Source: Carya illinoinensis (taxonomy: Eukaryota > Streptophyta > Magnoliopsida > Fagales > Juglandaceae). From it: a stretch of 64,000 nucleotides of DNA. Each line of letters starts with the position of its first letter. The stretch's first letter is position 1. The notes under the pieces are model-generated. The model searched no databases. It was not told the origin of the DNA and saw nothing but the letters and a program-made list of their open reading frames with translations. Location of the stretch: assembly GCF_018687715.1 (NCBI RefSeq), contig NC_056764.1:7764501-7828500 (forward strand), written 5' to 3'. Positions 17,788 through 41,450 of the stretch are shown here, one piece after another. Made by a program: the position numbers and the translations under genes.

Positions 17788-18003
17788 TGTGATTTTTTTT
17801 AAGGATCGGTGAAAATTACATTTTTTTTAGAAACTCAGAGCCTTCAAACTCGTTTGTCAACAACATCAAGCAATTTTTTTCAAATCTCCAGCCACACTTG
17901 TCGGGTCACTGACGGATCCATTTTTTCAAATATCTACAGTTTCTACTAATACACCGTTTTCTTCCATCTATTTACTTGCTGCGGATCATTTTTAATGATG
18001 TCA

Positions 18004-18017
18004 AAAGGGGGAGAAGT
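18004..18017 (+). other. Upstream purine-tract-like repeat
   Basis: AAAAGGGGGAGAAG occurs about 170 bp before the 3' LTR, and CAAGGGGAGC lies near 18115. Sireviruses are known for extra purine-tract-like motifs upstream of the 3' LTR, which fits the lineage inferred for this element. Confidence 0.55.
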
Positions 18018-18171
18018 GTTAGACTAGAACATTAACATTGTTTTAATTGCTAAACTTGTTATATATGTTTGGAATTATATTCATACTTTTGCTTGAAAAA
18101 CTAACACACATTCTCAAGGGGAGCTTAAGTATTAATACAAGTTTCAGGTTCTATCAAATATTTGTCATCAT

Positions 18172-18186
18172 AAAAAATGGGGAGAT
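18172..18186 (+). other. Polypurine tract of the Copia element
   Basis: AAAAAATGGGGAGAT lies immediately before the TGTTGAACC start of the 3' LTR. This is the plus-strand priming site. Confidence 0.8.
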
Positions 18187-19522
18187 TGTTGAACCCAAGA
18201 TTTCAAGCTTTGTGTAATTATATATCTACACATGGATTTTGATGATAACAAATGAATTCAAAGAATAAAGGAGTTTCGAACTCAAGTTGTTTACACAATG
18301 GAGTCAAGCACATCAAGGAAACAAGTATGAGCAAGAATGGAACAAGTTCACATTAAACTCATAGAGTAATGTTGTAAATCTCTTAAAAATTCGAAATTAG
18401 GATTAAGGCTCAAAATTAATATTTTATCATAAAGCATTAAAATACATTTTTCACATGTGCATGAATATTTTAAAAATTAACTTTGAAAGTATTAAAAATG
18501 ATTGATTGTCATATTTCACATGTGCATATTTTATTTGAATATTTTCAAAAGTGATTGATACTTTTCTTGATTTATGCAAAAGGTAGATGATTTTGTTTGA
18601 AAATTTTGAAAAGTAAAGTGTGCTCCTTTTGTCATATGCAAAAAGTAAAAGATTAGATTTAAATTTTTTTGAAAAGTAAAGTGTGCTCCTTTTGTCATAT
18701 GCAAAAAGTAAAAGGTTAGGTTTGAAATATTTGAAAAGTAAAGTGTACTCTTTTTGTCATATGCCAAAAGTAAAAGATTAGGTTTGAAGTTTTTGAAAAA
18801 GAATGATGTTGTCTTTGATAATTGACAAATAATAACTTTTTATTTGAATTTTTTGAAAAAGTGAATGATGTTGTCTTTGACATGTAAATTTTTTTAAATT
18901 TGAATATGAAGTTTCATATGCTTATAAATAAATCATTTGAGAGCTTCGCATTTACAACATCCAGAGCATACAACATTCATTCAAAACTTTCATTCTCTCT
19001 TCTCTAAGCATTGAGCTTAATCCTTGTTCATTTGAGAGAAATATAGTTTGCACTGTATTGTTCTTATTTCACTCATTGGGGAGTGTTTTCTGATAATCTA
19101 CCCACTATCAGCTCTTGTATCAGTAAAAGGGTGTGTATAACCCTTGTGCATGTAGAAAGTGTTCTACACAGGGAATAGTTGAATCACCACGTGTAACGTG
19201 ATTGCAAGTGTAGAGGGTGTTCTACACGGATCTTTTGTAGCGGTGTTGTTCAAAAGTGTAATAGGTTTCTATCTCCATCTGAATGAGGTTGAATAGTAAA
19301 TTTTGGGATTTTCAAGGGGTAGCTTGAGGCGAGGACGTAGGCAGTGGGGCCGAACCTCGTTAACATACTGAGTTTGCTTCTCTCTTACCCTTACTCTTTA
19401 TATTTATTACTGTTTCGTATTTTTTTTTATATTTTTATATTGTATATTTGATTTATAATTATTATTATTTTTTAAATACAACTCAATTCACTCTCCCTCT
19501 TGTGTTAGTCATCTGGGCAACA
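18187..19522 (+). repeat. 3' LTR of the Copia element
   Basis: 1336 bp, starting TGTTGAACC and ending GGGCAACA. It is homologous to 7703-9036 with many small differences. It has one fewer 63-bp unit than the 5' LTR but an extra duplicated GAATGATGTTGTCTTTGA segment near 18795-18875. Confidence 0.92.
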
Positions 19523-19810
19523 TCATCTAATCATTATCTAAACATAAAAATCAATATAACTTTTACAAAAATCAATGCAATCTTTTAAAGTTTCAAAATA
19601 AAAGTAATATTAAAAAATTAGATTCAAATAATTTTTTTTAACTTTATAATATTTTTATTCAATATTTTCTTTCTATTTTTTCAAAATCTAATAAAATATT
19701 TTAACTCAAATTATTTCATTATTATTTATAAAATTTTGAGATATTTTAAGTGTCAAATGAGCTTTTGATACGTGTTTCAAAACATTTCAAAGTCCTTTTA
19801 CTATAAGTGA
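19523..19810. repeat. Right part of the dispersed AT-rich repeat
   Basis: It continues the repeat interrupted at 7702. TCATCTAATCATTATCTAAACA, AAAATCAATA and CCTTTTACTATAAGTG correspond to 54170-54450 and to 49890-50110. It is cut by the CACTA terminus at 19811. Confidence 0.65.
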
Positions 19811-21199
19811 CACTACAAGGTTTTAGGCCTTTTGCAGCGTTTTTTATTTTGTTGCAATTAAAATCGCTGCAATAGATATACTTTTGCAGTGAAATATTTT
19901 CCCTTGCAAACTTTTCACATCGACATACGCTTTAATGAAGCGGGGAGCTTCATTAAAGTTGTTGCAGCGAAATAATAATCTATAGCAGCGAAGAGTTGCC
20001 TTGGAAGAATTAAAAACTTGTTGCAGCAGAGTAATATTGTTGCAATAGGCTCTGGGCGCCAAATCCCACTGACCAGTTTTTATTTTCCCCCCGAAATCAC
20101 TCTGTTACCATGCGAGTACCATCTCCACTTCGAGCCTCTTGCCCATTTCTCCTACCTTCAGTGCCCAGGTGACCGATTAACAGAAATACACTGGGGTCGA
20201 AATCTAGCTCCATCGTCGACTACGACAACGGGACCCTAGAACGTGCACCACTTCATTTCCCTTCCACGGCAGCTACGGTTCCTGTTTCCTCCCCATCCCG
20301 CTCTGTGTGTGTCTGATTCTATGGTCGGAGTGATTTGGGACACCGATTTCTGTTTGAATCGGTAGTTGACATTGTCGAACCAGTTACTTGGGTATACCTT
20401 TCGGCACCACAGGTATTGATTCTACTCATTGCTCTCTCTCTCCCCCTTCATCCGAGCTCGTTGCTTAACAAAAATGGGAGCTTTTTCTGGCCTGATCTAT
20501 TGCTAGATATTTGCATATGAAAGCAGCAATTTTCTTTCAGCATTTTTTACTAGTTCTTCTACATTTTTGCTACGTGTAGAAATTGGTTTAGTAACTGCAT
20601 AATGGTTGGGTGATATATAGTTTGTATTTGCTGCGTATCCTCTGATTGAGTGGTTTTTTTCTTGAAATCCCTAATTACACCTCTAATTATGCAATATGAA
20701 GTTAGGTTGTGAATAGCCTACAAAAGGCCAGAAGAACGTGTATATCAAAAAGCATTAGATAACGGTTTTTACTCTTTCTTCCAATGTGAATGACATGAGC
20801 ATGAAAGAAAAAAGATTGCTTTTGCAGGGGATCTTTTTTTTCCTTTTAGAAACCAAACATCTATTTTATTTTACATATTTACCATATCATAAAAGTGATA
20901 GAGAGCGGAGAGACTCACGTGGTTACACTGGATATAGTCTGAAATAGGAGACAGACACTCCACAGCTAGCTTATGTCCCTAAATTGTTGCAAATAATTAT
21001 AGAAGATAGAAATAGTAAATAATCATATCCACATTGTATTTGTGTGTGTGTTTTAGGGGGAGATCGAGTGGGAAGTGTGTCACGGTAATACACGGTAATA
21101 TATGTTTGCTAAAAGCTTAAACAGATCTCAACCTCTTGACTTGAAGTATTAATGATCTGGTCCAACTTGATGAGTCTTTGCTGGTAGTTTTGTTTGAAG
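19811..21199 (+). repeat. Left arm of the CACTA long inverted repeat
   Basis: The reverse complement is at 36744-38131. Coordinates pair with a constant sum of 57942 over the outer part and 57943 at the inner edge, so about one indel is present. One T/C substitution was seen near 20112, and no other difference in the stretches compared. The arm contains subterminal GCAGCG motifs (19811-20045), a GC-rich promoter-like part (20050-20420) with an E2F-type site, and a possible leader exon ending CACCACAG before GTATTG near 20412. As the inner edge is followed directly by GGATTTAGGCC, it abuts a second terminus-like sequence. Confidence 0.92.
20056..20063 (-). promoter_or_regulatory. E2F-type motif in the left CACTA arm
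   Basis: TTTGGCGC on the minus strand, within GGGCGCCAAA. It matches the plant E2F consensus TTTSSCGC. The same site occurs in the right arm at 37879-37886. Confidence 0.5.
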
Positions 21200-21955
21200 G
21201 ATTTAGGCCTTTTGCAGCGCCGAAAATCCTTGCAAATACCTCATAAAAACGCTGCAATACATCAGTTGCAGCGTACCAACCTTCCTTGCATGGTCGCCGC
21301 TATTAACTTTTCATTTTTGACCAATTGCAGCGCAACATGAAAAACGCTGCTATTAATTTCTTTTGCAGCGTTTTCTCATCGCTGCAGATACCAAAATACC
21401 ACGCTGCGAAAACCATCTGACCGGTAGGTCATAAACGCTGCAAAAGCTTAATAGCAGCGTTTTTTTTTCCTTGCTTTTATAAAAGTTTTCGCTGTAATAA
21501 TATTAGTAGACAGCAGCGTTATATTGTTGTCGTTGCTTTTGTTAGTTTTTACAACGCCTGTAAATCGCTGTAATAGCTCATTTAGCGTTGCAACTGGCCA
21601 ATCACAAATGCAACATTCACGTATGTGCGCTGCCTTTGAGATCAGTAGCAACGTATAAATATCGCTGCAAAATATAATACAACGCTGCAAATAGGCCTAA
21701 GGCTAAAGCAACAATATTTTTTCGTTGCTTTAAAAATTTATTGCAACGTCAGTACATCGCTGCAAATAGATAATATGCGCTGCAAAAGCATGTAGTCTAC
21801 AATATCCTGATACTTTATCAAAGCGTTTTAAGATATCGCAACATAACAAAAACCGCTGCAATTGGATTATCTCAGCGTTTTACATATCTTTTGCAACGTT
21901 TTGAAAAGTTTGATGTGTGATTTTGCAGCAATAAATAAAACGCTGCAATTATCAG
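21200..21955 (+). repeat. CACTA subterminal repeat field
   Basis: About thirty copies of GCAGCG or CGCTGC(A), often as AACGCTGCAA or TTGCAGCG, in both orientations. The field starts GGATTTAGGCCTTTTGCAGCG, which matches the element's terminal sequence apart from the first bases. It ends near AACGCTGCAATTATCAG. By analogy to En/Spm these are binding sites of the TNPA-like protein. This looks like the original 3' subterminal region, now buried behind the inverted arm. Confidence 0.85.
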
Positions 21956-24900
21956 AGTGGTGAATTTTTTTTTTTTGTCCCCTCTTTTCCGCTTCTGCTT
22001 ACGGCGTGGGGGTATACATATATATATAAGTCACTAAATTATTTAGAAGTCTAATTTAGTGACTAATTAATTTAAAATCTAATGCTTTTTATGCCCAAGC
22101 AACCTGATGATACTATGTTATTAATTTAGCATCAATACAAAAAAATACTGCACTTAATTAATAGTCCAGTTTGGGACAAATCTTTTTCACCTACATGCCA
22201 ATGACCACAACGTTGGTTTCTAGAGTTCCAAAAGCAACTGCTTAGCCGTTAGTCTAAAGAATAGAAAATCCTGAAACATGATCCATCCAAATGCACTCAT
22301 TATTATAAAATATTAATAAGAAAAAGCACATTAAATTATACACATCCATTCCTTGCAACATTTTTTAAGCTATCACACTCATTCATTCATCTAAATCCAA
22401 AAGAGTAATTCACATTAATGTAGTTCATGGGCTATACATGGGGTGGTATATTGGAACCAAGAAGTTACAACTTACAAACTACTAAATAAACTGAACACAT
22501 TTAAGCTTCTAAACATTAGATCAAAACGTCACTACATTCTCTTATATATTTCAAGCTGTCCTGCTCTTCATATAGTGTATATAATAATCATACCATGTGC
22601 ACCTGGGCATTGTAGATCAGGCCAGAACAACTTCAATACAACTGCAGCAATGTGTGGGGAATTCATGGCAGCACTCTCTTCCAAGAAACTGAAAGGAGCC
22701 AACCAAACCTGCCCATGATTAATAAATTCTAGTCATACAAGGAAGCAAATACTTATTTATAGCGATTTGTCCTAAATGACGCAATTTCTTTTTTGTGAAG
22801 TTCACTCCACAGTAGTATTTGGAGTTGCTAAAAAATATATATTGGGTGTTGATTAAAGATATTTACCCAAGAAACAAAAAACTGATCAATTTGAAACATT
22901 ATACTTAGAATAATGTTGCGGTAGTATATTAAACATAATTTCTAACTACTTTAGAAATTATTTAAAACCAAGCATATGATAGAAGAAAAAAGCAAAGAGC
23001 TTATCTGTTTCATAATCCTAGTCAGCATTGACTCATGAGTTGATGGGGATAATGTTTTTATGCCCCAGGTTAGTGACTTAGATGAAACTGAGCTGTACAG
23101 CCATAAAAGCTGTAAAATTTCCTATATGTTGAGTGGATATTCTTGTTTATACTTAGGTTGGTTCTGCTCTTAAGATGTGAAAGATTCCTAATTTTCTTTT
23201 TGAAGGAAAATTAAAAGCCTGGATATAAGAAATGTGGTATATAATCCAAAGCTACTTTTAAATGGAGCATCTAACCCAAAACTCCAATATTCATTTCTGC
23301 CATAACTCCTGATATTCTTATCAAAAGCAAACTGTTTGATTCAGTCATGGGTTGCAACAGAGACACATAATGGAATTCTAGTGTCTTCAAGTGTAAAAGC
23401 TAGTAAAGCAGAGCATCAGCATTAAAATTAGAGCAGTACGTAAGGTCCCTCAAACAGAATTTACTATTGTCTTCTCATCTCACTAAATAAACAGGTTCAA
23501 GTCATTCAACCAGATTGGGTATTTGTGTACCTGTTGATTACTCTTCACAATTCCCTCCATGGAATCAACAAGTTTCTGCTACCATCAGCACAACAGTTTT
23601 TAACATCTTCGAACTTCACATGTTGGAATGTACAATCTGCAGGGAGTAGCTTATAGTAGTGACTTTGAGGATAATATAATCCTGGGGCACATAATTAAAG
23701 AACAATTTTGTGCCCCAGCAGTAGTACATCTTTTTGTTTTGGTTCTATAGTCATGCATTCTCTCATTGGTGGCCATTGCATAATGCATTAAAATATTTTA
23801 TAAAATGCTCATGTCATTTATATAAAAGTCTGATTTTGGACCAGTATCAGAATTAATGTACTTCAAATCATGATTAAAATTCCTCTAAAGAAGCAGTCAG
23901 ATATGCATTTAGTGGCACACATGCTTCGAGTTCAATCACGTCATGCAATCTCTCATGCCATTAGTAATGACATGTTGCACATTAAATTCGTGCAACATTT
24001 TTCACACCCCATATAACATGATTGCTATCTGCAGCAATCATGTTAGTAAGCCTTTATGATTTTTGTGCTCTGCATCACCTATCCCAGACCTCTCTCAGAA
24101 TTTAGCTCTTTCTATATAAGTTAAGTTTTGTAGGTATGTAATTCAGTATTAAGAAATCCTTACTATGTTCCAAAAAATCTACCTTGCTCAAATCTATACT
24201 AATATAACAAGCTGCTATGTAAAACTGTTTTGCCATGTTCTATCAGGTCATGACAAATACTACTTCACTATCCTCTCTCTCTGCTTGATAATATTAGTTA
24301 TTGTCCAAATAACTAGACAATCATAGATTTTACCAAGTTATTATTCCAGTTAGCATAGATATCCAAACACTAGATTATCTTCCCAAGACTTTGAGCTCTT
24401 ATTCAAGACCTCCAGCTGAGAAACACTCATTATTATATACATTCACCATCTCCAATCAGAACCATTTAATTAGCATGGAACCATAACAACCATAGGACTG
24501 CACCATGCAAGACCCAGTAGTCTGGATTTTGTATCTATGAGATTAAGATACTGCAAAGTCTGGGTAAGAGAGGGAGAGGGAGAGAGAGCAAGAAGAGCAT
24601 TCTTTAAAAATCCTTTAGATCTATCAGCATACAACATTTCAGCCCACTTTTAGCATCTACATGGGATCTTATTCACCATCTGTTGTAGTAAAAATTTTCA
24701 ACTTAAGGCTCTTCTTTTATACATTCCAAAAGCCTTTAAGGCTCAAAACACTATATAAAAGAATGTTTTCATAAGTTTTCACACAGCTGGACACGGGATT
24801 AGTGGATATAGTGACAATGTACAAACCAAAGACATAATGGAGTTATGTCCAACTTCCTTTATGTAACAAGTACACTATACCAGACCATATATTGTAGGAT

Positions 24901-25540
24901 GGTGTACGAATGTGACAACACATGACGATGTTTCCCACCCTTACTCCCCCAAACCCAAACACATTAAGAAAATAAAAGTGGACTAATATATACATTACAG
25001 TCTTATTACTATTTTCCATTTACCTTCTCCGCAAGAGATATGAGACCCCGGTCACTCCTAGTGATATGGATGGAAGATTAATGTCGAACTGCAGCCAGCA
25101 AAAGCATCATCTTTCCTATTCAGATGTAAGATGGAAATGATGTTAAGATAAGCCTCAACCTCGCTACTATAAATATTCCTGAAAAAATAACTTCACAATG
25201 CAGCATATTCCACAACCACAATTATGTATAATATCACATACCATACACAGAAATGCTCCAACATATACATTGAAGAAACTTGACTTAGATCAATTATAGG
25301 CAGCCTTCATGAAGCATAGCATATCTAAGTTAAGCATGTAGACTCAAGCAAATACTGTTTAGTCAAGTTATACAACGGGATCTATATCTTGCATATTTAT
25401 AACTTCTGCATATTAGACTATTATGTTGCCTTAATTATCACCACCGTTCATATGGTGTACAGATTTAATGTATGACAAGGAATCATATGCTTACTTAACT
25501 TCCGGTCGTTTTTCTGAACACTGCACTGACCATTAAGGAA
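21956..25540. other. CACTA interior, no gene recognised
   Basis: AT-rich, with short frames only. A small inverted repeat, AGTCACTAAATTAT..AATTTAGTGACT, lies near 22030-22062. A run of AGAGAGAGAG-type sequence lies near 24570-24590. No captured host exon could be recognised by eye. Confidence 0.4.
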
Positions 25541-25699
25541 GTAAGAAATATTGAATGCTCTCACGCACTCAACACTCTGTTTCGCCCCGGCTTTCAATCC
25601 TCATCCAACAGTAGACTTTCATACAAGAAGGCGTACAACTTATCCCAGGTTGAACGTCCAGCTCCCTGGATGTGGATTCCAAAATGTTTTCAACCTTCC

Positions 25700-25760
25700 T
25701 CTTTATATATATATATATATATATCTACCATTGTCAATATATATATATTAATTTATATAT
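25700..25760. repeat. (TA)n microsatellites
   Basis: Two TA dinucleotide runs near 25702-25725 and 25737-25760, downstream of the TNPA-like stop codon. Confidence 0.85.
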
Positions 25761-25840
25761 AGGCCACCCACCATCTCCCAATACCAAAAATAGCCCAAAC
25801 TACCCAAAAAATCCCAGCCCATTATTTATTAACAGCACCA

Positions 25841-28368
25841 TCACGGAGTCTCTCCACGAGACTGCTGAGACTCTGTGTGTGTATGGAAATTCTGGAAGAA
25901 TGCCCTCATCAACAAATCTGTTTCATTTTGCCTCTCACGAAGTCTCAGTACTTCCTCCTGAATTGCATCAAATTGTGTCTTGTACTTGTCAGCATCTTTC
26001 CGGTAATTCTCAGCATCCTTCTTGTAATTGTCTGCGTCTTGCTTATGCCTTTCAATCAAGGCATTCAACTCTTTTTCTCTTTGGCTGTCCCGTTGGTGTG
26101 TCGAGTCCGGGATGACCATCTCTCCTAGTCCCCTTGAATATCCTGGTCTAGAGCCAAGGACCTCCCTAAAAACACTTGCTGCTGCATCATTGGTTCGTTG
26201 TTCAGGATCGAGCCCATCCAGCTTCCCAACCATCTCCTTCTGCACATGGAATTTTTGAATGGTTATTGTTAAGTCTTGTAGTGACAAGAAAAAATCAGTA
26301 AACATGTCATCCTAATTATATAATACTTTTATTCGCAATATATAACCTAATTTAATTATCATACTCACATAACTGGCCTCAGTTGCGGTGGTGACAAATT
26401 TTTCGGTCTTTTTTGACCAATGAGTCTCCTTATAGAACTCCACCAAATCCGCATTTGCAGCCCGCTACAAGTGTGTAATTTTGTCAGATTTATGTTAAAT
26501 GATTTATATTGATTCATCCGGAAAACATATACCCATGTATTCTCAACCACAAAACAACCAATTGAGTATGACACCCCATGCACAAACAACATGTTTCGCG
26601 TTCTCCCGCAATATAAGTTAGAAGTAACCAACATTGGAAATTATTTTGGTGAATCTAGACATATAATATAATAATGGAATTCGTAGAGCACATTTTTAGG
26701 AATTATTTGTTATTGAAAAATTATCACAGAATGGGTTGTGACATCATACGAGGCTGAAATCTGGAAATTACTTACATACCTTCTCCTCCAAAATCCTAAC
26801 AAAGGATTTCCTGCCAGCTGTGTGGTTGATGGTTTGTGCCTTTCTATTCTCCCGATTTCGCCTTGACATTGTCTGCCATTAATACCTAAAGTCAGCTTAC
26901 CCAAACCCACATAGTAAACAAACTATGTATGTAGTACCATTTTTAAAAAATAACAGTTTCGTATTTTGTATAACCAAAATATACCTTGAATTCCTCACTT
27001 CCCCACCTCCGACACAAGGTAATCCAAACATTCACGTCGACCATTGGACAACCAGAAGCCAATGCTTCTTCGTGGCTTCCGTATGATTCATATTTTCTGT
27101 GTAATTGGTGATGGACTGCATTAAACCTCTTACGCAGCTGCTTCAAGACGGTCAACTTGTGATTCTCCCGATCCCAATCCAACACAAAGTCAGCCTACAT
27201 GGATGAACATCACAAAAATTTAGTCATTCTCTATTGTAAATAAACTCCAATGTGTCAATATTAATGGCAATAATCTTACCCTCACACGGTCGATCAACTC
27301 GTCCTTTTGTGCCTGCGGCACATCGGTCCATCTCGCATAGCTCATGTCGCAATGTTGTTTGATGATTTGCGTTACCCGTGCAGTGAACATGGATGAGTTA
27401 CTACAGCAGGGTGCAGTTTCACCCTCATTTATCTTCAGAAACACTTTTCCTTGCTTTCTCAACATCTCGAACGCAATACACTTGGCTGGCCCACGTTTCC
27501 GTTTGGGCTGCTCCATGTTCGAGGCAGGCATTGTGGGGGCAGTCGCATCTGTATTAGAAGATAACGTTCAATCAAGTCAGTCTTCAAAAATTAAATGATT
27601 AAAACCACATGCACTGGGGGTTTCGTAATAAACATAGAACATAAACGACAAGCGTACCGATATTTTCTCCGTTGGGTGGGGTCACAACCATACCAATATT
27701 ATCTCCGTTCGGTGGGGTCACAACCAGAGCAATATTGTCCCCGTTAGGTGGGGGTTCTCTTACAGGTGAAGGTTCTCTACTCGGCTCGGGTGGGGGCATC
27801 GGAATGGGACATGGTGGCTCCCATGGATGACTCGGAGGCTGAGTTGAGTCATCCGATCCTGACTCATGATCTTCATTTGGAGGGCTATGGTATTCAGCGA
27901 TACGAACTCCTCGTGGTCGGCGTGCTCTAGTACCGTATGGTACAAATCGCCGGCCACGGAAACCTCGCCGGCCTCCTCTTCCGCGGGAAGGTCCTGCCAT
28001 CGTGTCACCTGTATTTATTTAGAAAACCCCATTTAAGTTAGAAGTAATTCCAAGTATGGCCTTCTAAGCACATACATTGTATCCACATGTATATGTGGAT
28101 AAAAGCCCTCTAATGCCACCTTGTATTTTAGACTAAAATCTACTGCAGATATTAGTATTGCTTTTTTCAGTGTCATACACGTATATAGCAATCAATCAAT
28201 AATATACTTTCATTAGTTCGGAAGATGATGCATGAATGCCCATCTTTTTAACAATTGTACCCACCAAGAATTGGCTTCGAACTATTTGCATGAAAAAGTC
28301 AATGATTGTTTACCGAGTACAAGGAAGTACTTAATGTGAACATATTTACCTCCAGGGTTGTTCGTCAT
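25841..28368 (-). CDS. TNPA-like CACTA accessory DNA-binding protein (Ptta/En/Spm family)
   Basis: Six exons join in frame on the minus strand: 28000-27658, 27548-27280, 27194-26985, 26872-26780, 26464-26369 and 26239-25841. All have GT..AG junctions, and the total is 1410 nt (469 aa). Exon 1 is Gly/Arg- then Pro-rich, with a PNGDNI triplication. Exon 2 carries KRKRGPAK and QIIKQHCDMSYARWTDVP. Exon 3 has WITLCRRWGSEEF. Exon 4 has NRENRKAQTINHTAGRKSF, the hallmark of the plant Ptta/En/Spm transposase family. Exon 6 has an imperfect KDADNYKKDAENYRKDAD repeat forming a coiled coil. A further leader exon, 28368-28350, splices in phase to 28008 and would add MTNNPGGDT before the ATG at 28000. In En/Spm the equivalent protein binds subterminal repeats, brings the ends together and relieves promoter methylation. 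No broken codon was found. Confidence 0.88.
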
Positions 28369-28822
28369 TTCTTGCAGGGCGATGTAATTTATAGTCAAAC
28401 TTTCTTCTATTTGCGCCTGTGTGTTTGTCGCTGACCTGGTTACTTGGAATAGAACAACAATAATCACGCTCAAGTCATTAACAAACTGTCAAACAAAAAA
28501 TACATATGTAGTAATCTCGACTTTATATATGCTTTCTCTATGGAGTTGGAGCTAGCTAAAAAACAGTACAGCAAAGAAATGACCTACATGATTTAAACTG
28601 TAAATGCATAGTGTGGGCATTCGGTAGTAAATGCATGAACATAATACATGTAATGAACTCATACATTACATTACCCAAATCGTGAAACAAAACTAACGGG
28701 ATAATTATAACTATAATGAAAGTCATTGATTGTATTTCTTGATACCTTATATTGTCCATTTACAGCAAAACAATAAAGGTAAAGTCAAAATATGGAAGTT
28801 ATCAACGATTTTAGCTGGTTTT

Positions 28823-31800
28823 CTACGCTGATATAGACTCCTCGTCTGTGTAAAGGTCCTCCTCATCTGAATATTCCCCATCAGCAGAAGCATCTCCTGA
28901 ACCAGAATCAATTATGCCATCGTCAATAAATTCTACCGAATTCCAATTTTGACCAGCCATACTTGTAGCTTCTCGTGCATCAATCAAGATAGGTTCTATA
29001 TCATTCCTACTCAGTGGAGTTGACATTGGACATGCATCGCACTGCAATGGTGCATAATCATATGACTCCTCAGTTTCTTGATATGCATCATCATCACTTG
29101 ATGAGTCATCAATATCTTCTAACACCGTTGGCCCCGATGGAATGTCATATACATTCCTGTTCGTGTACGTTTGCACCACAAACCATCGCCCTTTTGCCCT
29201 TATATCTCTGACGTAAAAACACTGGGAAGCCTGGCATGCCAACACAAACGGTTCATCCTTATACCAAGTCCTATCCATGTTGATACTGGTCATATGGTTA
29301 TCAACTCGTACCCCTCGTCTTGGATCACCAACATCAAACCAATCACACATGAACAAGTACACCCGACGCCAACCCATGTAGTGTAACTCCACGATCTCAT
29401 TTATAACACCGTAGAAGTCTACATTATTAGTATTTTCGTCCCCAGTTACCAACACCCCTGAATTCTGTGTTCGCCATCGAAGTTCACGTTCTTTCGTATG
29501 GAACCTTTTGCCATTTATAATGCAAGCAGTATAGGATGTAACCCACCGTTCAGGACCGCAAGCTAATGCATATAGATCATCGGTCACATCAAGTGGGTTG
29601 TTGATACGCTGGTCCTTAACCTACAAGAATAGTTTGTATGAAGGTCATCACTTATAGTATTTTCATTTTAATCATAAAGGATCGGGTTCATCAATCTAGG
29701 TTGTATTCAATCAAACTTACACGTTTCTTCAACCACGTTGGAAATTCAGATTTATGTGTTCGATCAATAAAATTTGGCCTGTCCACCTTACACTTCTCAT
29801 AATGCTCCCTGCATTTGGGGAACACATAACCCATGCCGCAATATATGTAAGTTTTGCCATCAGTCAAACGACAGAAAATGATTGATGGAAAAGACATAAA
29901 ATCTCCTTGAAGTTGGAGTTGACGGATAACGGATGCTTACTCTAGGTAGGGTCCAATCTCAGCGCAGTTGTTGAGGACGTACCATGTTGATTCCGTAAGG
30001 AGTTTATCTGATAATTGCCTGTTCGAAGCAGTACCAATGGGCCTCAGTTTTTGGTTGAAAATTTTGATTCCATCTATATCCTCTGATTCACCATCAATGT
30101 TGCGGTCCACTCGAGTAAACTTCGTCTCAACGTCTTGGAGATACAATGAGCAAAATGTCAGGCATTCAATGTGAATGTGGGCTTCGGCTATTGAGCCTTC
30201 TGGTCGGGCTTTATTCTTAACATACCGCTTGAACTTGCCAAGATATCTCTCAAATGGATACATCCACCTGTATTGTACTGGACCCCCAAGTATGGCCTCG
30301 CGGGGTAAGTGGATAGCTAAGTGAACCATGATATCGAAAAAAGATGGGGGAAATATCATCTCCAACTTGCATAGAATTGTGGCAATATCAGTTTCAAATT
30401 GGGATATTTGATTAACATCCAGGGTTCGGGCACACAACCCCTTGAAGAAACTGCACAGTTCAATCATGGCCAATGCAATATCATTTCTAAAAAACCCCCC
30501 AACAGCAATAGGAAGTAGTCTTTGCATGAAAACATGACAGTCATGACTTTTCAACCCGGAGATTCTACAATCTCGTACAGATACACAATGCGCGATGTTC
30601 GAAGCGAAGCCATCTGGAAATTTCACATCGACTAGCCATTCACAAAATTTTTTCTTTTCATCACCGTGTAATGTATACAATGCTTGTGGCATTGTAACAC
30701 GTTCACCGTCATACTTCAAATGCAATTCTTTTCTGAATCCCAAAATCTCCAAGTCACGTCGAGAATTAATATTATCTTTCGTTTTACCAGGAATGTTCAT
30801 TAATGTGCACAATATGTTATCAAAAATATTCTTTTCAATATGCATGACATCTAAATTATGTCGAAGACGCAGGGTTACCCAATACGGTAGCTTGAAGAAA
30901 ATGCTATGTTTGGTCCAGTTCAGCTCTTCAACAGTGCGTTTTCTCTTTCGATGAGATTTACCAAATTGCACATCCCCAAGCATCAGCAGTTGACCCAAAA
31001 TATCAAAGCCTTCTACAACCCTTGGTGGTCTGCGATGATCTTCTTTACCATTGAATAAATGCTTTCTCTTTCGCCAGGGGTGATCGGCAGGCAAAAAACG
31101 CCGATGTCCCATATAACAATGTTTTCTCCCATACTTCAACCAATTGGAGTCTGTGCCCTCATTACAAGATGGACAAGCCAATTTTCCTTTTGTTGACCAC
31201 CCAGAAAGAATCCCATATGCTGGAAAGTCATTGATTGTCCACATTAAAGCAGCGTGCAACATAAACGTTTCCTTCGTGGAGGCATCATACGTACGTACCC
31301 CATGTTCCCAAAATTCAAGCAGTTCATCTACCAACGGTTGCAAGTAAACATCAATGTCATTAGACGTAGATTTTGGCCCAGGAATAATGAGGGATGTAAT
31401 GAAGAATTGGTCCTTCATGCACAACCACGGCGGCAAGTTATACGGGACCAGGATTACAGGCCAAATGCTATATGGTTTTGCCATATTGTTGAAGGGATTG
31501 AAACCGTCACTTGCTAGACCAAGCCTAACATTGCGAGCATCCTGTGCGAACCAACTATGGTCGTCATCAAATCTCTTCCAGGACTCAGCATCTGCAGGAT
31601 GTCTCATACTAGACTCGTCGGATGGTCGTTGCATTTTATGCCATCTCATATCACGTGCTATATTTGCTGTCATGAAAAGACGTTGCAATCTTGGCTTCAA
31701 AGGAAAATGCCTCAACACTTTTTGAGGGATAAGACGAGCCCTGTGTGTATTAGGCACCCACCTTGAAGCCTTACAGATAGGGCATTCATTAAGATTAGCA

Positions 31801-32495
31801 TTTTCCTTCCAGAATAAAATGCAGTCATTGGGACATGCATGAATTTTGTTATAATTCATACCCAAACCCCGCTCCAATGATCTTGACTCCTCATATGAAT
31901 GTGGCAATTCAGCATCAGGGAAGGCGGCCCGCAACAATTTAAGTAGCATATCAAACGACTTTATTGACCACCCACCAAGTGTCTTAATGTGTAACAACTT
32001 CACAATGAATGATAGTTTTGAGAATTTGGTACAGCCAGAAAAAAGTGGACGTCGGGCATCCTCTAATAGCTGCTCAAAAGATTGGCTTGGGGAGGGATCT
32101 GGAATAGATCCACCAGTTGCTAGTGGAGTATCATAACCTTGGGGAACATCAACAAATTGGCCTGCCCGAATGTCATCTAACATATGGTCCATATCATCAA
32201 TGTAGTCATCGGCATAATCAGCAACACTGTCATCATCGTCGTCATTGAAACTTTGTGTTTCCTCTTCCCCATGAAAGATCCACTGGGTATAATTTGGATT
32301 GATCCCTTTCATGTACAAGTGAGTCTCCACATCAAAGATAGGCAAGAAGAGAGTATTGCAACATGAACGGCATGGACATCGAATGCGATCACTTCCTCGA
32401 GAATGGTTTCGTGCCAGGTTGAGGAAAGTGTTAACCCCTTCGGCGTATGCAGGCGATCGAAGTCTATTGGTCAAGTTCATCCAGCTTTTGTCCAT
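28823..32495 (-). CDS. TNP2-type CACTA transposase, apparently intact
   Basis: Three exons: 32495-29941, 29808-29721 and 29620-28823. They use GT..AG introns and give 3441 nt, 1146 aa, without a break. ATG 32495 begins MDKSWMNLTNRL, the usual start of the transposase-associated N-terminal domain, whose Cys/His cluster CPCRSCCN is near residue 40. The TNP2 catalytic domain follows (VLRHFPLKPRLQRLF near 260, FPAYGILSGWSTKGKLACP near 430, LRHNLDVMHIEKNIFDN near 550). Then come a DUF4218-type region (LKSHDCHVFMQRLLPIA, PVQYRWMYPFERYLG) and, in exon 3, a DUF4216-type region (VYLFMCDWFDVGDPRRGV). The C-terminus is acidic. The product should cut and join the element's CACTA ends in the nucleus. The gene lies upstream of the TNPA-like gene on the same strand and was probably transcribed from the 38131 end. 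Confidence 0.93.
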
Positions 32496-35400
32496 CTAAA
32501 ATGGTTGAAATCCGCATATTAGTTACTCGGATAGTATTTAGGGTTCAATTTAGCTATACGAAAGATGGAATCTTAATTAGAGAAACTAACATGGTTGGCT
32601 TTGAATATTGTCTATTTATTCAAAGCCATATCTTGTAGATCATAAGAGAAGATGGAGGTGATGATACTAACCGGAGATGTCATGAAGATCGTTGTGGAAT
32701 GATAAAAGTTGTGTTGAACAGTTTGGTGTGTCTATGCCAGGAGTATTGAAGGGCTGCAGAATATGCCATCATGTTAAACATGGTACAAGAAGGCCATTGT
32801 TGGTGAATGGCACTTTAATGTTAATAACGAAGCATGTAGAAGTGGAACTAGTTTGGAGGTTAGGTTGGCGTGTAGTTTGAAAACTTCAGTAAATTAAGTA
32901 TTTATAACTTCCAGCTACTTTCTAGATGTTTAATTGCAATTCATGCGATTATGAAAGGCAAGTGTAAATGAAAGTACTTGGCCAAGATATATGAATCTTG
33001 TGATCAAGGAAGTACGTGTCAGGAGATGTGGATGACATTTTAATGACGAATTCTTGTTTGACTTGTAGATCTAAATATTAAACCTCACATGTATAACACT
33101 AGCAATTTTCTCTAAATTGATTAACCAATTGGTATATGGCTGAGTGTAGGCATAAAGTCAAACAAGGTTAGAATTTTGAAAGGAAGCGATTTGGTGAATG
33201 GATGGTCATACATATGTTGATCAACTAATAAGCATATGTATTCAAATGTAATTATAACTCGTCCAGAAGCCTTGCAACGATTTTAGCCGGATGTCCAAAT
33301 AATATGACATGCACGTTACAATCTAGCAATGGTCACACAGCCAGGAAAAAGGTGAATGTCATTGCTACCTAGCATGTTTTAAATTAAAACAACTGGCGTA
33401 TGCAAACTGAAAAACCGTACAGTAGAAAACAGGTTTACACTGCATAATACCAATTGGTGTGTAAACATATAACACAGGCATCAAACCACAAATCACACAA
33501 ATGGCCATAATAAATTCCATAATGCAGCTTGGATAATATTCAGCAATATGCTTGGAGATCTTCATTTGAATATCTCATAAGAATTCAAATAATTATGAGA
33601 TATTTAACCAACAATTCCTATTCAGGACTTTAAAGCTCACCGAGATGCGAGTAAGCATACTTGTGCTGGAAGAAAGTTCAGCACAAGTATGGAACTATAA
33701 ATATCGATGTTAGGTGGGAAATAATATATGCAAGATAAGTAGTAAAGGAGATTTAAAATTATCCTCTACTTATTTACTATTCAGCGATTTTAATGCCAAT
33801 GACAAATACTAAATGAAATCCCCCCCCCCCAACAAAAAGACCTCCAAAAAAACTGATAATAGTACTTATTTGTAAGCATAGCAAAGAAGAATGAATATCC
33901 CAAAGATGGCACTCAGATATGCAGATATTAAGTCGAAATCCATCTCAGTGTAATATTTTAACAATATTTTATATCATTTTCCACTTTCATCCTAGCTCAA
34001 CTCAACATCCAAACATAACCTTAATCCAAAGCTATATATTCAAGTATAAATCCACATTAGACTAGGTATATTTAGAGCAAAAATGATAATATAACCCTAA
34101 TACAGTTTTTAAGCATATTTATAAATTCAAACTGTCCAGAGTCCACAAGCCAAATACGAAACAAGGTCACAAATTATATTCCAACAGTACACCATCAACC
34201 CCACGATTCAAATACAAAATCATATCTGAAATTAAAAGCAAACTGTCCAGCCAATCGCCCACAATCCAAATACAAAAGAAGTTTGGAAATCAATCCAAAC
34301 CATACACCAACAGCCCCACAAGGTAAATACAAAAAAAGGTATGAAATTAAATCCAAACCATATATCATCCATTTCCAACTGCCAAACTGGTTTAACATTT
34401 ACAAAAAATCAATGTTAAACCAAACACTAGATCTCATAGTTGCTGCCCAGCCACAGATATCTCCAAACTACCCAGACTTGAGCATGTACACTTGTTAAAA
34501 ATAATTCTCCAGCCATAAACACATACACAAGTATAATCTTTAAGTCATGAGCATATAATATTTTGGGCAGTTGGTTTCTAGAATTGTTTCCTATAATCTT
34601 TAAGTCTTACTATAATATTTAATTTCAAATATTAGCTTCAACAAACGGTCGTTAGAAATCGTTGTAAACGGTTGGTTTGGCAAACAATTATCAAGGGGAG
34701 TTGTAGTATTTCCATACAAGAGGAGATATTAAAAAAACAAATCTCACATCATTAATCAACATGTTACATATATAAGACCAATTAATGTTTTAAGATAGCA
34801 TTCTGCCCCAATTACTGCATTGTTTTGCCAAGAAGAGCAACTGGCCATCGGCTTTCCCAAGTTAAAACAATCCAATGAAGTTTATATTTTTATAAACTTC
34901 CTCATAAACATCATCCTTGTATTCTAATTACCAGAACTTAATCTAAAAAATTAGATATATGATTTTTGCAACTAAACCCACAGTTTCACAAAACTGTTCT
35001 AAGGTAGATGAAACATGCATTAAACTAAATAGACTTTTAAAACAGAATTGTAATAATTCTGATAATTTACTTTACAATCCTCAACTCAGACTACACACAA
35101 TATTCATTCATTTAGCATAGCCAACCTACTTATCCAAAGAACAATGTAATATATCATAGCCAACCCACGAAGACAATTAACCACCCAAACCATTCTTCAC
35201 TATCAGTTTAGCATATTGACAAAATATTCCATACTTTTCCGACCAAACCATACTTGCCAACTATCCAATCAAATAAGCCTAGCAACTAGAAATAACCCAT
35301 TCAAAGTGTGTTAGGAAGCAACATTAGATCAATTTACAAACGAATATTTCCAAAGAAAGCACATATCAAACCACAAAGCAAGCACCAATTTAAACACTAT

Positions 35401-36653
35401 GCATCGAAAGCACCATAGATCAAATGCCCTTAAAAAAAAATCATTAATGTGTTTAGGTACAGCTACATGTATTATTTGTCTTATCTAAAATAAGAGAGTT
35501 AGCATGCCAGGGAGTCCCCATGTCAAAAAAAGGTTATTGCCAAAGATGTTGCACATCTCTAAGCAGGTTGAATGTTTATTAAATTATGACCCTATATGAG
35601 TTTGGACTTAATATAGGGTTTTCAAGAAAAATATCTATGAGGACATGCTGCCAGAAGTTTTGAATAGCTAGCCTACAAATCACCCATAATAATACATCTG
35701 GCCAAGCAATGTAGTGTCATGAACAGATTGCATTAAAGTTAAAATTAATGAGCTTTAGATTCACATATGCATAATGAATCTAAACCTCTTAAGGGTGCAG
35801 TTAGCATAACAAGAAATACCTCCTAAATGAGTACAACACCTATTTGTAATGAAATACCATATAATAAGTGGTATTCCAACCTCAGCTCATGTACTTAAAA
35901 GCACAACTCATTCCACGCATAGAGATTATGTATAAGTATTTGCCCAACACATCCTCTAGTAGCAACAAAACAGAGAACAAATAAAAGGATAGTCTCTGTA
36001 TTATTTTTGTCTTACTAATAGTAGTACAAGCTGCCAATGTCTTGAATGTACAGTAAAGCAGAGCATCACGCCCAGTTAAAACAAAGCAAGTGGAAAAAGC
36101 TATCCACTTCCTTTGTAAGAAGATCTAGTCCTTGTGAAAGTTTCTCAGCTCTCCTCCTAGAATCTGAAACAGAATAATGAATGCTTACACTTCAACAGGG
36201 TCGACACCATTAATCAACAAAATGTGTACTAATAGTTGACACTTGTATCAACTGCTTCAAGTTCAATATCTATGGGACATCGTCCACGAGGGAATATGGT
36301 TATATTCCCCAAAGATAATACTAGTCTGCAGGGCAATAAAAGCTTGTGCCCATCATAATTTGGTATACAACCAGAATGTAGCAACTTTAAAATCTAACCA
36401 GAGAAACGCTGCAGCCAAGATGACAACCATTCTTCCAACTAGCTTACAGAAGACGACGCTTTCTTATAACAATTATTGTACCAAAAAACTTAGGTTGGTT
36501 TGAAAGATCTATAACCCCAAACAAACTCCTAATTTTTGTTGAACCATCATCTAAGGTAACTATCTAATGAATAAGATCCTCAAGGAGGAAACAGTTAGAA
36601 CTACATTTAAATTGGCTTAGATACCCAGCCATATATATATATATATATATAGC

Positions 36654-36717
<64 letters not shown>

Positions 36718-36743
36718 AGTAATAGCAATTACACAATAAATAC
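32496..36743. other. CACTA 5' interior (probable long first intron), no gene recognised
   Basis: This lies between the promoter-bearing right arm and the transposase ATG, as does the long leader intron of En/Spm. Degenerate repeats of about 70-90 bp (AACTGTCCAG, AATCCAAATACAAAA, CCAAACCATA) occur at 34130-34390. A C10-11 run lies at 33820-33830. No coding motif was recognised. Confidence 0.45.
36631..36718. repeat. Compound (TA)n(CA)n(TA)n microsatellite
   Basis: Runs of AT, then CA with one ATA break, then AT again. It sits just inside the inner edge of the right CACTA arm (36744), where the inverted duplication ends. Confidence 0.9.
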
Positions 36744-38131
36744 TTCAAACAAAACTACCAGCAAAGACTCATCAAGTTGGACCGGATCATTAATACTTCA
36801 AGTCAAGAGGTTGAGATCTGTTTAAGCTTTTAGCAAACATATATTACCGTGTATTACCGTGACACACTTCCCACTCGATCTCCCCCTAAAACACACACAC
36901 AAATACAATGTGGATATGATTATTTACTATTTCTATCTTCTATAATTATTTGCAACAATTTAGGGACATAAGCTAGCTGTGGAGTGTCTGTCTCCTATTT
37001 CAGACTATATCCAGTGTAACCACGTGAGTCTCTCCGCTCTCTATCACTTTTATGATATGGTAAATATGTAAAATAAAATAGATGTTTGGTTTCTAAAAGG
37101 AAAAAAAAGATCCCCTGCAAAAGCAATCTTTTTTCTTTCATGCTCATGTCATTCACATTGGAAGAAAGAGTAAAAACCGTTATCTAATGCTTTTTGATAT
37201 ACACGTTCTTCTGGCCTTTTGTAGGCTATTCACAACCTAACTTCATATTGCATAATTAGAGGTGTAATTAGGGATTTCAAGAAAAAAACCACTCAATCAG
37301 AGGATACGCAGCAAATACAAACTATATATCACCCAACCATTATGCAGTTACTAAACCAATTTCTACACGTAGCAAAAATGTAGAAGAACTAGTAAAAAAT
37401 GCTGAAAGAAAATTGCTGCTTTCATATGCAAATATCTAGCAATAGATCAGGCCAGAAAAAGCTCCCATTTTTGTTAAGCAACGAGCTCGGATGAAGGGGG
37501 AGAGAGAGAGCAATGAGTAGAATCAATACCTGTGGTGCCGAAAGGTATACCCAAGTAACTGGTTCGACAATGTCAACTACCGATTCAAACAGAAATCGGT
37601 GTCCCAAATCACTCCGACCATAGAATCAGACACACACAGAGCGGGATGGGGAGGAAACAGGAACCGTAGCTGCCGTGGAAGGGAAATGAAGTGGTGCACG
37701 TTCTAGGGTCCCGTTGTCGTAGTCGACGATGGAGCTAGATTTCGACCCCAGTGTATTTCTGTTAATCGGTCACCTGGGCACTGAAGGTAGGAGAAATGGG
37801 CAAGAGGCTCGAAGTGGAGATGGTACTCGCGTGGTAACAGAGTGATTTCGGGGGGAAAATAAAAACTGGTCAGTGGGATTTGGCGCCCAGAGCCTATTGC
37901 AACAATATTACTCTGCTGCAACAAGTTTTTAATTCTTCCAAGGCAACTCTTCGCTGCTATAGATTATTATTTCGCTGCAACAACTTTAATGAAGCTCCCC
38001 GCTTCATTAAAGCGTATGTCGATGTGAAAAGTTTGCAAGGGAAAATATTTCACTGCAAAAGTATATCTATTGCAGCGATTTTAATTGCAACAAAATAAAA
38101 AACGCTGCAAAAGGCCTAAAACCTTGTAGTG
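36744..38131 (-). repeat. Right arm of the CACTA long inverted repeat (element 5' end)
   Basis: Near-perfect inverted copy of 19811-21199. Because the transposase genes point away from this end, this is the true 5' end, with promoter and leader. On the minus strand are the terminus CACTACAAGG, a few GCAGCG motifs, a GC-rich zone at 37890-37530, and a splice-donor-like CACCACAG|GTATTG near 37530. The unexpected copy is the one at the other end. Confidence 0.92.
37879..37886 (+). promoter_or_regulatory. E2F-type motif in the right CACTA arm
   Basis: TTTGGCGC on the plus strand, about 245 bp from the terminus. It is the mirror copy of 20056-20063. Confidence 0.5.
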
Positions 38132-38712
38132 CTTTTTACCTTGTTGGATTTTTAATTTCGGGTGGACTTTGTTCTAGTGGGTTTTCCTTTGTTTTTAGGC
38201 CAAATTCTTTCAATTTTCAGGCCCAGCTCACTTGCCTTAAGCCCAACCCCCTTTCTCTCCCAAAATGGCGCCGTTTGCTTCCTAGCCCTTAGGGCTTTGT
38301 TTCTTCTTTATTTCCTACTGTTGGCGCCGTTTCTTCTTCTTCTTATCTTGTCTCCCTTCTCATCGACCCAGTTGAGCAAATCAGATTCAAGTAAAACCCA
38401 TATGATAAGCTGGGATAAATTCACGAGAATTGGGAATGGGTCAAGTTCTTTGCTTTGCGTCAAGTATGAAACGAGCTTGGATTGGTGGATTCGATGAGAA
38501 GGGAGAGATGGAATGCGGTGGGATTCGGGGCTTGTGGTTTTGCAAAGCAGAAATGAATCTTGGGGTTAGTGATTTTTTGAGGATGTGCTTTTCTGATTAG
38601 GGGGATGGAATCGCATTCATTTCGTTGTTGCTGCTTCTTCTTCCTCTTTCCATTTCCATTTCTATGCATCCAGACCAAGAGGCTAAGAATTCAAAGAGGA
38701 AAAGGAACTGAC
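38132..38712 (-). other. Partial intron 1 of the ACR-like gene
   Basis: It runs from the splice donor (GT at 38712-38711, minus strand) to the CACTA end at 38131. It contains two GGCGCCGTTT motifs (near 38267 and 38325) and GCCCA boxes, common in plant promoters and first introns. No second exon occurs before the transposon. Confidence 0.55.
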
Positions 38713-38783
38713 CTGGGAGTGTTAATTCGAATCACAAGCTTCTTGTATTCGTCCACATAAGCAGGCCTCTCAATCTCTATCAT
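38713..38783 (-). CDS. First exon of an ACT-domain-repeat (ACR-like) protein gene, orphaned
   Basis: ATG at 38783 reads MIEIERPAYVDEYKKLVIRI and then NTP plus a split Arg codon (AG before GT at 38712). The pattern DEY.KLV.R.N.PR at the extreme N-terminus, with an intron right after it, is typical of plant ACR proteins, which have three or four ACT domains and are thought to sense amino acids. Upstream, on the minus strand, is a pyrimidine-rich leader (CTTTGTTTGTTTTTCTTTCG). The downstream exons should lie at lower coordinates, but after 581 bp the CACTA element begins. The sequence beyond its far end is an unrelated repeat, so the gene is separated from its remainder here. The call rests on 24 residues. 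Confidence 0.6.
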
Positions 38784-39229
38784 TGTCTTCAATTACAAAG
38801 TGAAAACGAAAGAAAAACAAACAAAGCACTGGAAGATCAAAAGCCCTTAAAAAGTTTAGCACTGTTTTTCTTGCATATTTTAAGTTATTAGGAAATGGAA
38901 TTCAATCGGACAACACAAATGGCCACAAACGGTGGCTTAACTGCCACTTAATGAGGAACAATAAAACTAATGGTAAAATAAGATTTTCTGTTAAAACAAC
39001 AAATTCCGTTTTATAGGCACTTTTTATATATAGAAGATGAGAAATGATATTTGCAGTCGTGGTTGTGCAAGCGGCGTGCAGTCGTTTTAAAAAAAGAAAA
39101 TTAATATGGGACCCACATGAAAAAAAAATTATTTTTATAACTTTTTTTTATTCATTCCGTACAACCGTTTACATCCCGTTTACATGTGCCGACTGCATCT
39201 AGCAGTTCTGATAGAAGATATATGATTTT
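38784..39229. repeat. Upstream flank of the ACR-like exon with a MITE-like block
   Basis: 38784-39030 holds the leader and likely promoter of the ACR-like exon. About 39035-39225 is a short repeat with inverted ends: GAGAAATGATATTTGCAGTCG on one side and CGACTGCATCTAGCAGTTCTG on the other. It has no coding capacity. Confidence 0.45.
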
Positions 39230-39640
39230 TTTGATATTTTTTTTATGTGATTCCATTAATTCTCTGCTGATAATTAGATTTTATAAATTATTTATCTTTG
39301 ATATTTAACGTTCCACACCAATCAAGCAACATATATACCTATATGTTCCTTTTATAATATATATATATATATATATATATCATATGATGATGCTTGCTTA
39401 GCAGAAAAAAAAAAAAGAAGAAGAAGAAGAAGGTGTTTCAACATTTATTTATTCAGAGTTAAGAATCTGGTTGTTGTACTGTTAGTGAGAATGATTTCTA
39501 GGACGTTGAACAAGCAAACACAAGTTGGTAACTGGTGTAACTGACTGCATTTATTAGTAATATTATTGCATTTACGGTACGTATGCGTGCAGTTTAATTT
39601 AAACTTTGAACGATGATCTTGATGAGCAGTCGGACGTATA
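39230..39640. repeat. Duplicated flank, copy 1 (homologous to 54990-55600)
   Basis: ATGTGATTCCATTAATTCTC, TTATTTATCTTTGATATT, GTTGGTAACTGGTGT and TTTGAACGATGATCTTGA match 54990-55600 in order. So the NLR-cluster duplications reach at least this far. A (TA)n run lies near 39353-39381. The copy is interrupted by a solo LTR at 39641. Confidence 0.7.
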
Positions 39641-41450
39641 TGTCAAAACCCCAAGGCAGGAGGCCACGGGCTATGCCTTGACCAGCACCAGCCCATGCCA
39701 GGACAACATGCCAGCAGCACTGTTGGTGTCGCTTGATTGCCCACAGACCGAGCCCTTGGTGAATGCTAGACCACGGTCACCCTCCATCAGGTAGCAAACA
39801 GTCGGCGCGCGCACGCAAGCGAGGTTGTCACACCACACTCAGCGCACGGCTAGACTGCATGCACGCCTAGTGCGCGTGCGCAGCGGGCACGCATGGGCTA
39901 TGCGCACACACCGCGTGCATGCATGGGCCGTGCATAGGCACAAAGCCCATGCATGGCCTAGGCACCCGCGCAGCGCACACTTGCACACCCACCTTGGAAT
40001 TGACGGTGCGGCTGCCCAGCAGGCCCACGCATGCTGGCATGCCACTCAACGCCCTGGTCTTGACCAGGGCCATGCTGATCAACGCCCTGGCCTTGGCCAG
40101 GGCCTTGCTGCTCAACGCCTTGGCCTTGACCAGGGCCATGCTGATCAACACCCTGGCTTTGGCCAGGGTCTTGCTGACCAACGCCCAGGCACCACAGCCT
40201 AGGCCATGCAGACCAACGCCCAAGCCCCACTAGCCTGGGCCATGCAGCAGCCTGCCATGCTTAAGCCAACCACGGTCCAACCCAGCGACTCATCAATGGT
40301 GCCTAGCCCACACAACCTGGGCCACACATGCAAGGACCATGGACCAGCCAAGGCTAGCCCGGCAGGCCAATCTGAAGACCCATGTGTGCAAGCATGAAGC
40401 CTATGCTGTGAGTCATCCTGGCCACCCATGGGCCACTGACAGCATGAGGCCTTAACCAGGAGGGGTGTGCCGGGAACCATTTTCCCTTTGTAATCATTTT
40501 AATTGCTTTCTAATATAAGTGAGGCAATAGGCTATCACTTAGTTTTTATCTTGGAACATTTGGACGAATTTGGCTTGTAAGCCCCCATAGACACATTGGT
40601 GCTTTGTCACTTAGGCTCCATTGGGTGCAATCCATGAATCCCAAAGGAGAAGGCTCACCCTGTGCAATTCATGAATCAGGGTAACCCATTCATTCCATTG
40701 TTTTTCTTTGATTAATGCATTGTTGAGGTATTTCAACATTTTGGATTGTGTCTATTGCATTACATTCGCATTTGCTTGCTGATTATTTTGAACCGTTCGA
40801 GTGGGGCATCGCTTAAGGCAGCCACGAGTTGCCATTGAAGGGCATCTGGTCTGCACCAGGCCACCCTGGTCGAATCTAGAGCAAGGTTAAGGACAAGCTA
40901 ACAGTTACCAACCACCAGCCAAGCCACACGCCCAGCCCTTGCCACCTGTCTAGCCACAACCGCTCCCCTACTTTGTAGGGAGTAACCAACCATCCCTTAA
41001 ACCGCTCAGCCATCACCCACTCGGCCAACCCACTTAAACCACCCTTAGCCACATGTGCCTAATCATCAGAAGACACCTGTGTGAGACTTGGTCAGCCCCC
41101 CAAGCGAGTGACACTTGTGCTTGACTTGGTCAGCCACCATCAGGAGACACCTGGTGCCTGACTGGGTCAGCCCACCAGCAAGAGCCACGTGTGCCTGACT
41201 TGGTCAGCCAGCCACTTAACCACCTGATCCCATTCACAACCGTTTTTGACGATTCAGCTCCTGCACATGTATGCATGCACGCCCAGTCACTAGAATCTCG
41301 CCCACCATCAGCCACTGATCAACCATACGAACTCAGCCAACACCACCCATAACCATCACGGTCAAGCAAGTGGCAGCCCACATCGATCATTGAGGAGCAA
41401 GAAGGGGCGCGGCAGCTTGGTGTCTAGGATCTCAACCGAGGACCCTATCA
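39641..41450. mobile_element. 1.8 kb solo LTR with target duplication GTATA
   Basis: It starts TGTCAAAACCCCAAGG and ends GGACCCTATCA. Perfect 5-bp repeats GTATA flank it (39636-39640 and 41451-41455). The paralogous empty site near 55590 (GAGCAGTCG followed by TTTTACGCTGATGAG) confirms both edges. It is much more GC-rich than its surroundings. It contains a TATA-like TATAAGTG near 40516 and a minisatellite at 40047-40230. No internal coding region or second LTR is present, so recombination to a solo LTR is the simplest reading. Confidence 0.85.
40047..40230. repeat. 33-bp GC-rich minisatellite in the solo LTR
   Basis: Units beginning CAACGCCCTGG or close variants start at 40047, 40080, 40113, 40146 and 40179, with a degenerate one at 40213. 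Each has a small CTGGYCTTGRCCAGG dyad. As 33 is divisible by 3, several frames stay open on both strands. These are not genes. Confidence 0.88.

Follow-up and report, generated by a model that had tools for sequence, protein, structure and literature searches.

How does a transposon come to carry the same end on both of its sides? The question is raised by a locus of Carya illinoinensis that lies within a stretch of 64,000 nucleotides, referred to here as the window (C13:7764501-7828500 of a 674-Mb assembly of 17 contigs). On one side of an 18.3-kb unit is a left arm (19811-21199, plus strand), an extra inverted copy of the 5' end of a CACTA element that points inward, and on the other is a right arm (36743-38131, minus strand), the native 5' end of the element and the apparent donor of the left arm. 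When one arm is aligned with the reverse complement of the other, they agree over 1389 bp with 2 mismatches (window positions 20111 and 21158) and 0 gaps, and similarity by chance is excluded. An earlier sequence-only reading had rightly recognized the arms as inverted copies; the one substitution and one indel that it counted are in fact two substitutions and no indel, and its coordinates are correct for the left arm and one base off for the right, which starts at 36743 and not at 36744. The self-comparison of the window that it had proposed recovers the arms, and in a repeat search (seed 20, minimum 60 bp) they are the single inverted pair in the whole window. With BLAST, the arm alignment reaches 1395 bp and takes in a third mismatch, since microhomology makes the sequence just beyond the arm's inner junction similar. 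The sequence CACTACAAGG stands at 19811 and, reversed, at 38131, which places an inverted CACTA motif at both outer ends. The left arm comprises the CACTA terminus, 5' subterminal motifs and, as judged by eye, a putative first exon with part of the first intron; the longest frame inside the arms does not exceed 86 aa.

Read on the minus strand, the inner element is a CACTA transposon, an identity first proposed from the letters alone and now confirmed by the inverted CACTA termini, a Tnp2-type transposase and subterminal repeats in both orientations. Between the arms lie 15.5 kb that include an open transposase frame of 852 aa (29937-32495, minus strand) with Transpos_assoc, Transposase_21 and DUF4218 domains; its Pfam matches are Transposase_21 (PF02992, E 1.8e-96), PF13960 and PF13963. 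A separate minus-strand ORF (28823-29620) has a Pfam match to DUF4216, a domain that is fused to Tnp2 in many relatives from the protein list. With regard to a TnpA-like second protein, four stop-to-stop minus-strand ORFs at 25841-28018 are without a Pfam match at E 0.001. Counted on both strands, the TGCAGCG core occurs 3 times in each arm, 13 times in 21200-22000 and once in the remaining 14.7 kb of the interior. An AT/CA microsatellite (36631-36717) is situated 25 bp inboard of the right-arm end, and one other TA-rich dinucleotide array is listed in the native element at 25704-25761. An older, diverged duplication within the element, spotted by eye from short common words, was left unconfirmed at E 1e-3 and was set aside.

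The normal anatomy of the family is provided by relatives in the same assembly. The closest full relatives are found at C1:43964621-43977997 (arm 99% identical) and C11:29905590-29921444 (arm 96%). Both resemble the window element in the 5' arm, the 3' subterminal region, the CACTA termini and Tnp2, and the AT/CA microsatellite is present in both as well. Each carries the arm at its 5' end alone, followed by a different 3' end that is intact and starts CACTACAAGGATTT, and each is flanked by TAG/TAG as a 3-bp target-site duplication. The unlike ends that the sequence-only reading expected of a CACTA element are precisely what these two relatives display. In the window element, by comparison, there are two 5' arms and no duplication, and the 3' end is clipped and now internal. 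The C1 copy is without the segment matching 27872-31447, such that its transposase is partly deleted; in the C11 copy the transposase frame is open across all 852 aa and is 98.8% identical to the frame in the window. More broadly, both window arms match one single place per relative in 10 of 10 relatives (20 kb fetched for each; matches above 100 bp). A further family member at C2:8087893-8090077 is internally deleted to 2.2 kb with its 5' and 3' ends normally arranged; its 3' terminus is mutated (CTCTACAAGG) and its flanking triplets do not match.

With these relatives as a guide, the native 3' end of the window element can be located. Its subterminal region and terminus occupy 21197-21960 on the plus strand with the first six bases, CACTAC, absent, and the junction with the left arm reads AAG|GATTTAGG. 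Across the junction the window has TTTGAAGGATTTAGGCC, where the C1 relative has CACTACAAGGATTTAGGCC; the right arm, for its part, runs on as TTTGAAGTATTTATTG. The certain loss from the native 3' end is CACTAC alone, with AAG being common to both sides. As the native terminus has lost CACTAC, the CACTA motif at the left outer end must be part of the added arm. The junction microhomology consists of AAG, and 8 of 9 positions agree in the pattern AAGxATTTA. When the 5' third of the element is tested against that 3'-end stretch, 2 of 5627 positions, one of them the junction itself, reach 8/9, and the same test over twelve 3'-end offsets gives 24/67524. Allowing up to 2 mismatches, the 29-base internal junction has one occurrence in the 674-Mb assembly. 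Since the native 3' end survives directly inside the left arm, the arm was added outside of it. The proposal that the 5' end had been copied "over" the 3' end does not hold, given that the native 3' subterminal region is retained at 21197-21960 with the arm on its outer side.

The flanks are equally informative. The left flank (19523-19810, plus strand) ends ...AAGTGA and belongs to a local repeat, and the right flank (38132-39221, plus strand) begins CTTTTTACC; with TGA on the left and CTT on the right, the 18.3-kb unit is without a 3-bp target-site duplication. Uninterrupted copies of the left-flank repeat are present in the window at 49905-50259 and 53988-54604. Both continue past the insertion point with sequence that is absent at 38132, and similarity to the second copy resumes at 39222. 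The neighborhood holds other features of its own. A Ty1/copia-type LTR retrotransposon (7703-19522; RVT_2 E 3.5e-72, rve), whose two LTRs are about 92% identical and each contain 62-63-bp repeats, has inserted into the very repeat that borders the CACTA left arm. A 33-bp tandem repeat array of GC-rich units is found at 40007-40204. Leucine-rich-repeat and C-JID ORFs at 47932-49299 and 51733-52392 are tandem copies about 86% alike, and they may be pieces of putative TIR-NBS-LRR-type disease-resistance genes.

An element-free duplicate of the locus, L030, lies about 0.25 Mb away at C13:8035564-8039652. Its first 717 bases correspond to window 19093-19812 and its bases 1501-3756 to window 38132-40403, a right flank of 2.3 kb, both at 97% identity. 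Between both flanks L030 holds 785 bp that are absent from the window (783 if the CA common with the element start is counted as flank). The coordinates bear this out: left-flank matches are displaced by 251968 and right-flank matches by 234432, and the two displacements differ by 18321 minus 785. Since L030 has the 785 bp between matching flanks, two sites 785 bp apart have evidently been fused in the window with loss of the host segment. The segment looks to be the ancestral state from a comparison of seven loci with the 783 bases of the missing stretch. Of that stretch, L036 (the 53988-54604 copy of the window) covers bases 5-542, L037 covers 5-548 and L031 covers 443-783, at 81-82% identity; L038 covers 7-142, L035 matches in pieces alone, L032 has no match to the 783 bases, and L034 is the same place as L030. 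On a larger scale, six paired left-flank repeat matches link C13:7744386-7832537 with C13:7981583-8072479 at shifts of 237-252 kb, and a large local duplication around the window is suggested.

Taken with the junction, the flanks speak against one simple origin. In-place gene conversion of the 3' end by the 5' end was rejected, as it would not leave a native 3' end inside the arm, mismatched flanks or a loss of 785 bp. Among the mechanisms offered by the sequence-only reading, gene conversion fails on the flanks and the lost DNA, and aberrant repair is retained in a modified form. The missing duplication, the origin of the flanks from two sites and the loss of host DNA had all escaped that reading.

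Which copy of the 5' end supplied the left arm can be read from substitutions. Both window arms share four derived substitutions relative to the C1 and C11 relatives (arm positions 80, 151, 707 and 968); at four more positions C1 differs and C11 agrees with the window. Six rows at arm position 1389 represent alignment ends and were left out of this count. The two differences between the arms, at 20111 and 21158, are both C-to-T changes at CpG with the derived state in the left arm, and the right arm has none. In a tree of 11 arms, computed from roughly their first 776 bp, the two arms of the window group together with a support of 0.90. The shared derived substitutions, together with differences that are derived in the left arm, point to the right arm, or to a nearly identical copy of it, as the donor, in agreement with the earlier proposal that the right (5') end was the source. 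The CpG changes offer a hint from a sample of two that the left arm may have been methylated in the past. As for age, 1808 aligned columns of the window and L030 flanks contain 41 mismatches, with 4 further columns being gaps, as against 2/1389 between the arms. Since divergence of the flanks far exceeds that of the arms, the arm was copied long after the locus was duplicated; the recency that had been suggested from arm identity alone is upheld in this relative sense.

Within the thresholds of the searches, the two-armed structure is a one-off in the assembly. The genome search that had been proposed for other two-armed copies found no opposite-strand arm pair within 50 kb at 38 other places, these being what remains of 40 scored candidates (of 259; first 1001 bp of the arm) once the window's own 2 are excluded. 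Likewise, the 42-base near-terminal 5' sequence occurs at 21 places with up to 3 mismatches, 2 of them the window's own, and no such pair exists among the 19 others. The idea of a whole family of elements with long terminal repeats was dropped, with no second inverted pair among the scored places. In the literature, a narrow search of titles and abstract openings, which is weak evidence of absence, found no description of a CACTA element that bears an additional inverted 5' end, and one narrow search found no paper on CACTA and sister chromatid transposition.

Any account of this locus must supply a second precise 5' CACTA terminus 785 bp away, remove the host DNA, clip six bases from the 3' end and make the join by short homology. 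The best reading, with slightly better than an even chance of being correct, is an aborted transposition of the alternative type followed by microhomology repair. The process would start from a normal CACTA element, B, at the right-hand CTT site with its 5' end to the right and its 3' end to the left. A single transposition that was aborted, probably one involving sister chromatids, would have put a 5' CACTA end of B into another target (TGA), 785 bp leftward. Transposase would also have cut at B's own 3' end, from which six bases would then have been eroded. The strand with the inserted 5' end may have broken, or its copying may have stopped, after 1389 bp, just before the AT/CA microsatellite. 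This end would have been joined to the eroded 3' end of B via annealing at AAG(x)ATTTA, and the host DNA separating TGA from CTT, 785 bp, would have been lost in the process. The sequence itself establishes the structure, the donor, both flanks, the microhomology and the loss of CACTAC and of host DNA; from these we infer a single event, the use of a sister chromatid, cutting by transposase and the order of the steps. The microsatellite is a possible pause or break site; since a second TA-rich array exists in the element, the closeness of the arm end to it could be chance. Recombination between the inverted arms may also have flipped the interior and exchanged the roles of the flanks, which makes the original flank of B uncertain. 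There is no sign that the 18.3-kb unit has moved since it was formed.

More than one path leads to the final structure: two independent insertions and a deletion would give an identical product. Cut-and-paste elements often make local hops, and a sister copy of B could have hopped 785 bp away in the opposite orientation, such that the 3' ends of the two copies faced one another. A microhomology-mediated deletion would then have left 1389 bp of the second copy and removed the 785 bp along with six bases of B. This course explains why a precise CACTA terminus stands at each of two targets, why no duplication is present and why host DNA is gone, and the junction homology fits it just as well; in effect, an element end at a second nearby target and joining by microhomology are both present and suit alternative transposition and two insertions plus deletion equally. 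Its costs are an extra insertion, a deletion endpoint that falls by chance within six bases of the B terminus, and a second copy nearly equal to B (4 of 4 derived substitutions shared and none private to the right arm), on which grounds it is regarded as possible but rather unlikely. Aborted transposition would supply every required feature in a single event.

Two other origins are less likely. A two-headed element could have formed elsewhere, or as an excised intermediate, by extending the eroded 3' end with a copy of the 5' end, and then inserted with its ends at different points so as to delete the 785 bp. Copying that ran off at the cut terminus would explain the precise CACTA ends on both outer sides and the absence of copied donor flank, and an uncoupled insertion, itself an additional assumption, would fit the missing duplication. 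Set against this proposal, the junction is without a second match in the assembly and the places with the near-terminal 5' sequence hold no other inverted pair, making it improbable. An assembly artefact deserves consideration since long inverted arms are prone to misassembly, and the second arm might have been produced by a misjoin or by a haplotype that was inverted or collapsed. A misjoin would have had to hit a CACTA terminus exactly at one of its edges and, at the other, a microhomology located six bases inward of the 3' terminus. Also speaking for a genuine structure are two substitutions private to the left arm, the colinearity of the flanks with the element-free duplicate, and an internal junction peculiar to the locus, with one occurrence in the assembly. 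An artefact is regarded as very improbable indeed.

Aborted transposition with microhomology repair can be set beside systems in which element ends are known to rearrange. According to work ascribed to Rubin and Levy in 1997, abortive gap repair reportedly yields Ds from Ac when incomplete copies of the ends are joined at short homologies, and the products are said to be internal deletions that keep both native ends. The window unit, in contrast to Ds made in this manner, has an inverted extra end and has lost flanking host DNA. Alternative transposition itself is an established process in Ac/Ds, and a proposal of it, with loss of the spacer, exists for VANDAL21 of Arabidopsis; the part of that study concerned with other head-to-head class II elements reports a check with no further cases (PMC12312487). 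A closer likeness in process is offered by the Composite Insertions of maize, which combine a transposon end at a second target, aborted re-replication and joining of broken ends by microhomology (PMC4270019). The internal junctions described there have 3-bp and 9-bp microhomology, and at least one has none. Composite Insertions involve Ac/Ds, with two nearby elements whose ends are reversed, and were obtained in genetic screens; the present case involves one CACTA element with about 1.4 kb copied and is deduced from sequence alone (PMC4270019).

In form, the nearest counterpart is Mu killer, a MuDR derivative of maize. In Mu killer the 5' terminal region is duplicated in inverted orientation, with each half running from the terminal repeat 1.298 kb into mudrA; the locus is internally deleted and silences MuDR in trans (PMC3440606). 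In both units the outer ends come from the same element end, and the duplicated length is similar (~1.3 kb in Mu killer, 1389 bp here). Mu killer belongs to a different superfamily and its duplicated part covers transposase gene sequence, whereas the window unit has an open transposase frame between its arms. Among Mu killer-type traits, the window unit has the inverted 5'-end duplication and is without a deleted center or transposase sequence in the arms. The window unit appears to share its process with Composite Insertions and its form with Mu killer.

What the arms could do in the cell depends upon what they encode. They are the region expected to hold the first exon of the gene, and the unit may possess two inward-facing 5' ends. 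A splice-donor-like CACCACAG|GTATTG is visible by eye at arm position 602; the arm yielded no TATA-like match, which weakens its reading as a promoter. If the left arm is a promoter, it should fire antisense to the transposase genes. It is a long shot that CACTA elements undergo alternative (sister-chromatid) transposition as Ac/Ds do, with the two-headed locus a natural product that could be a source of family-directed double-stranded RNA in the manner of Mu killer or could move by means of its two 5' ends.

The evidence for the anatomy of the two-armed unit is unusually complete. The locus presents a transposon that has rearranged both itself and its neighborhood, and the changes can be read by way of the element-free duplicate and the normal relatives. 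If the reading as an aborted transposition holds, alternative transposition, as established for Ac/Ds, would extend to CACTA elements. The locus also shows a simple route to an inverted 5'-end duplication of the kind that silences a transposon family in Mu killer.
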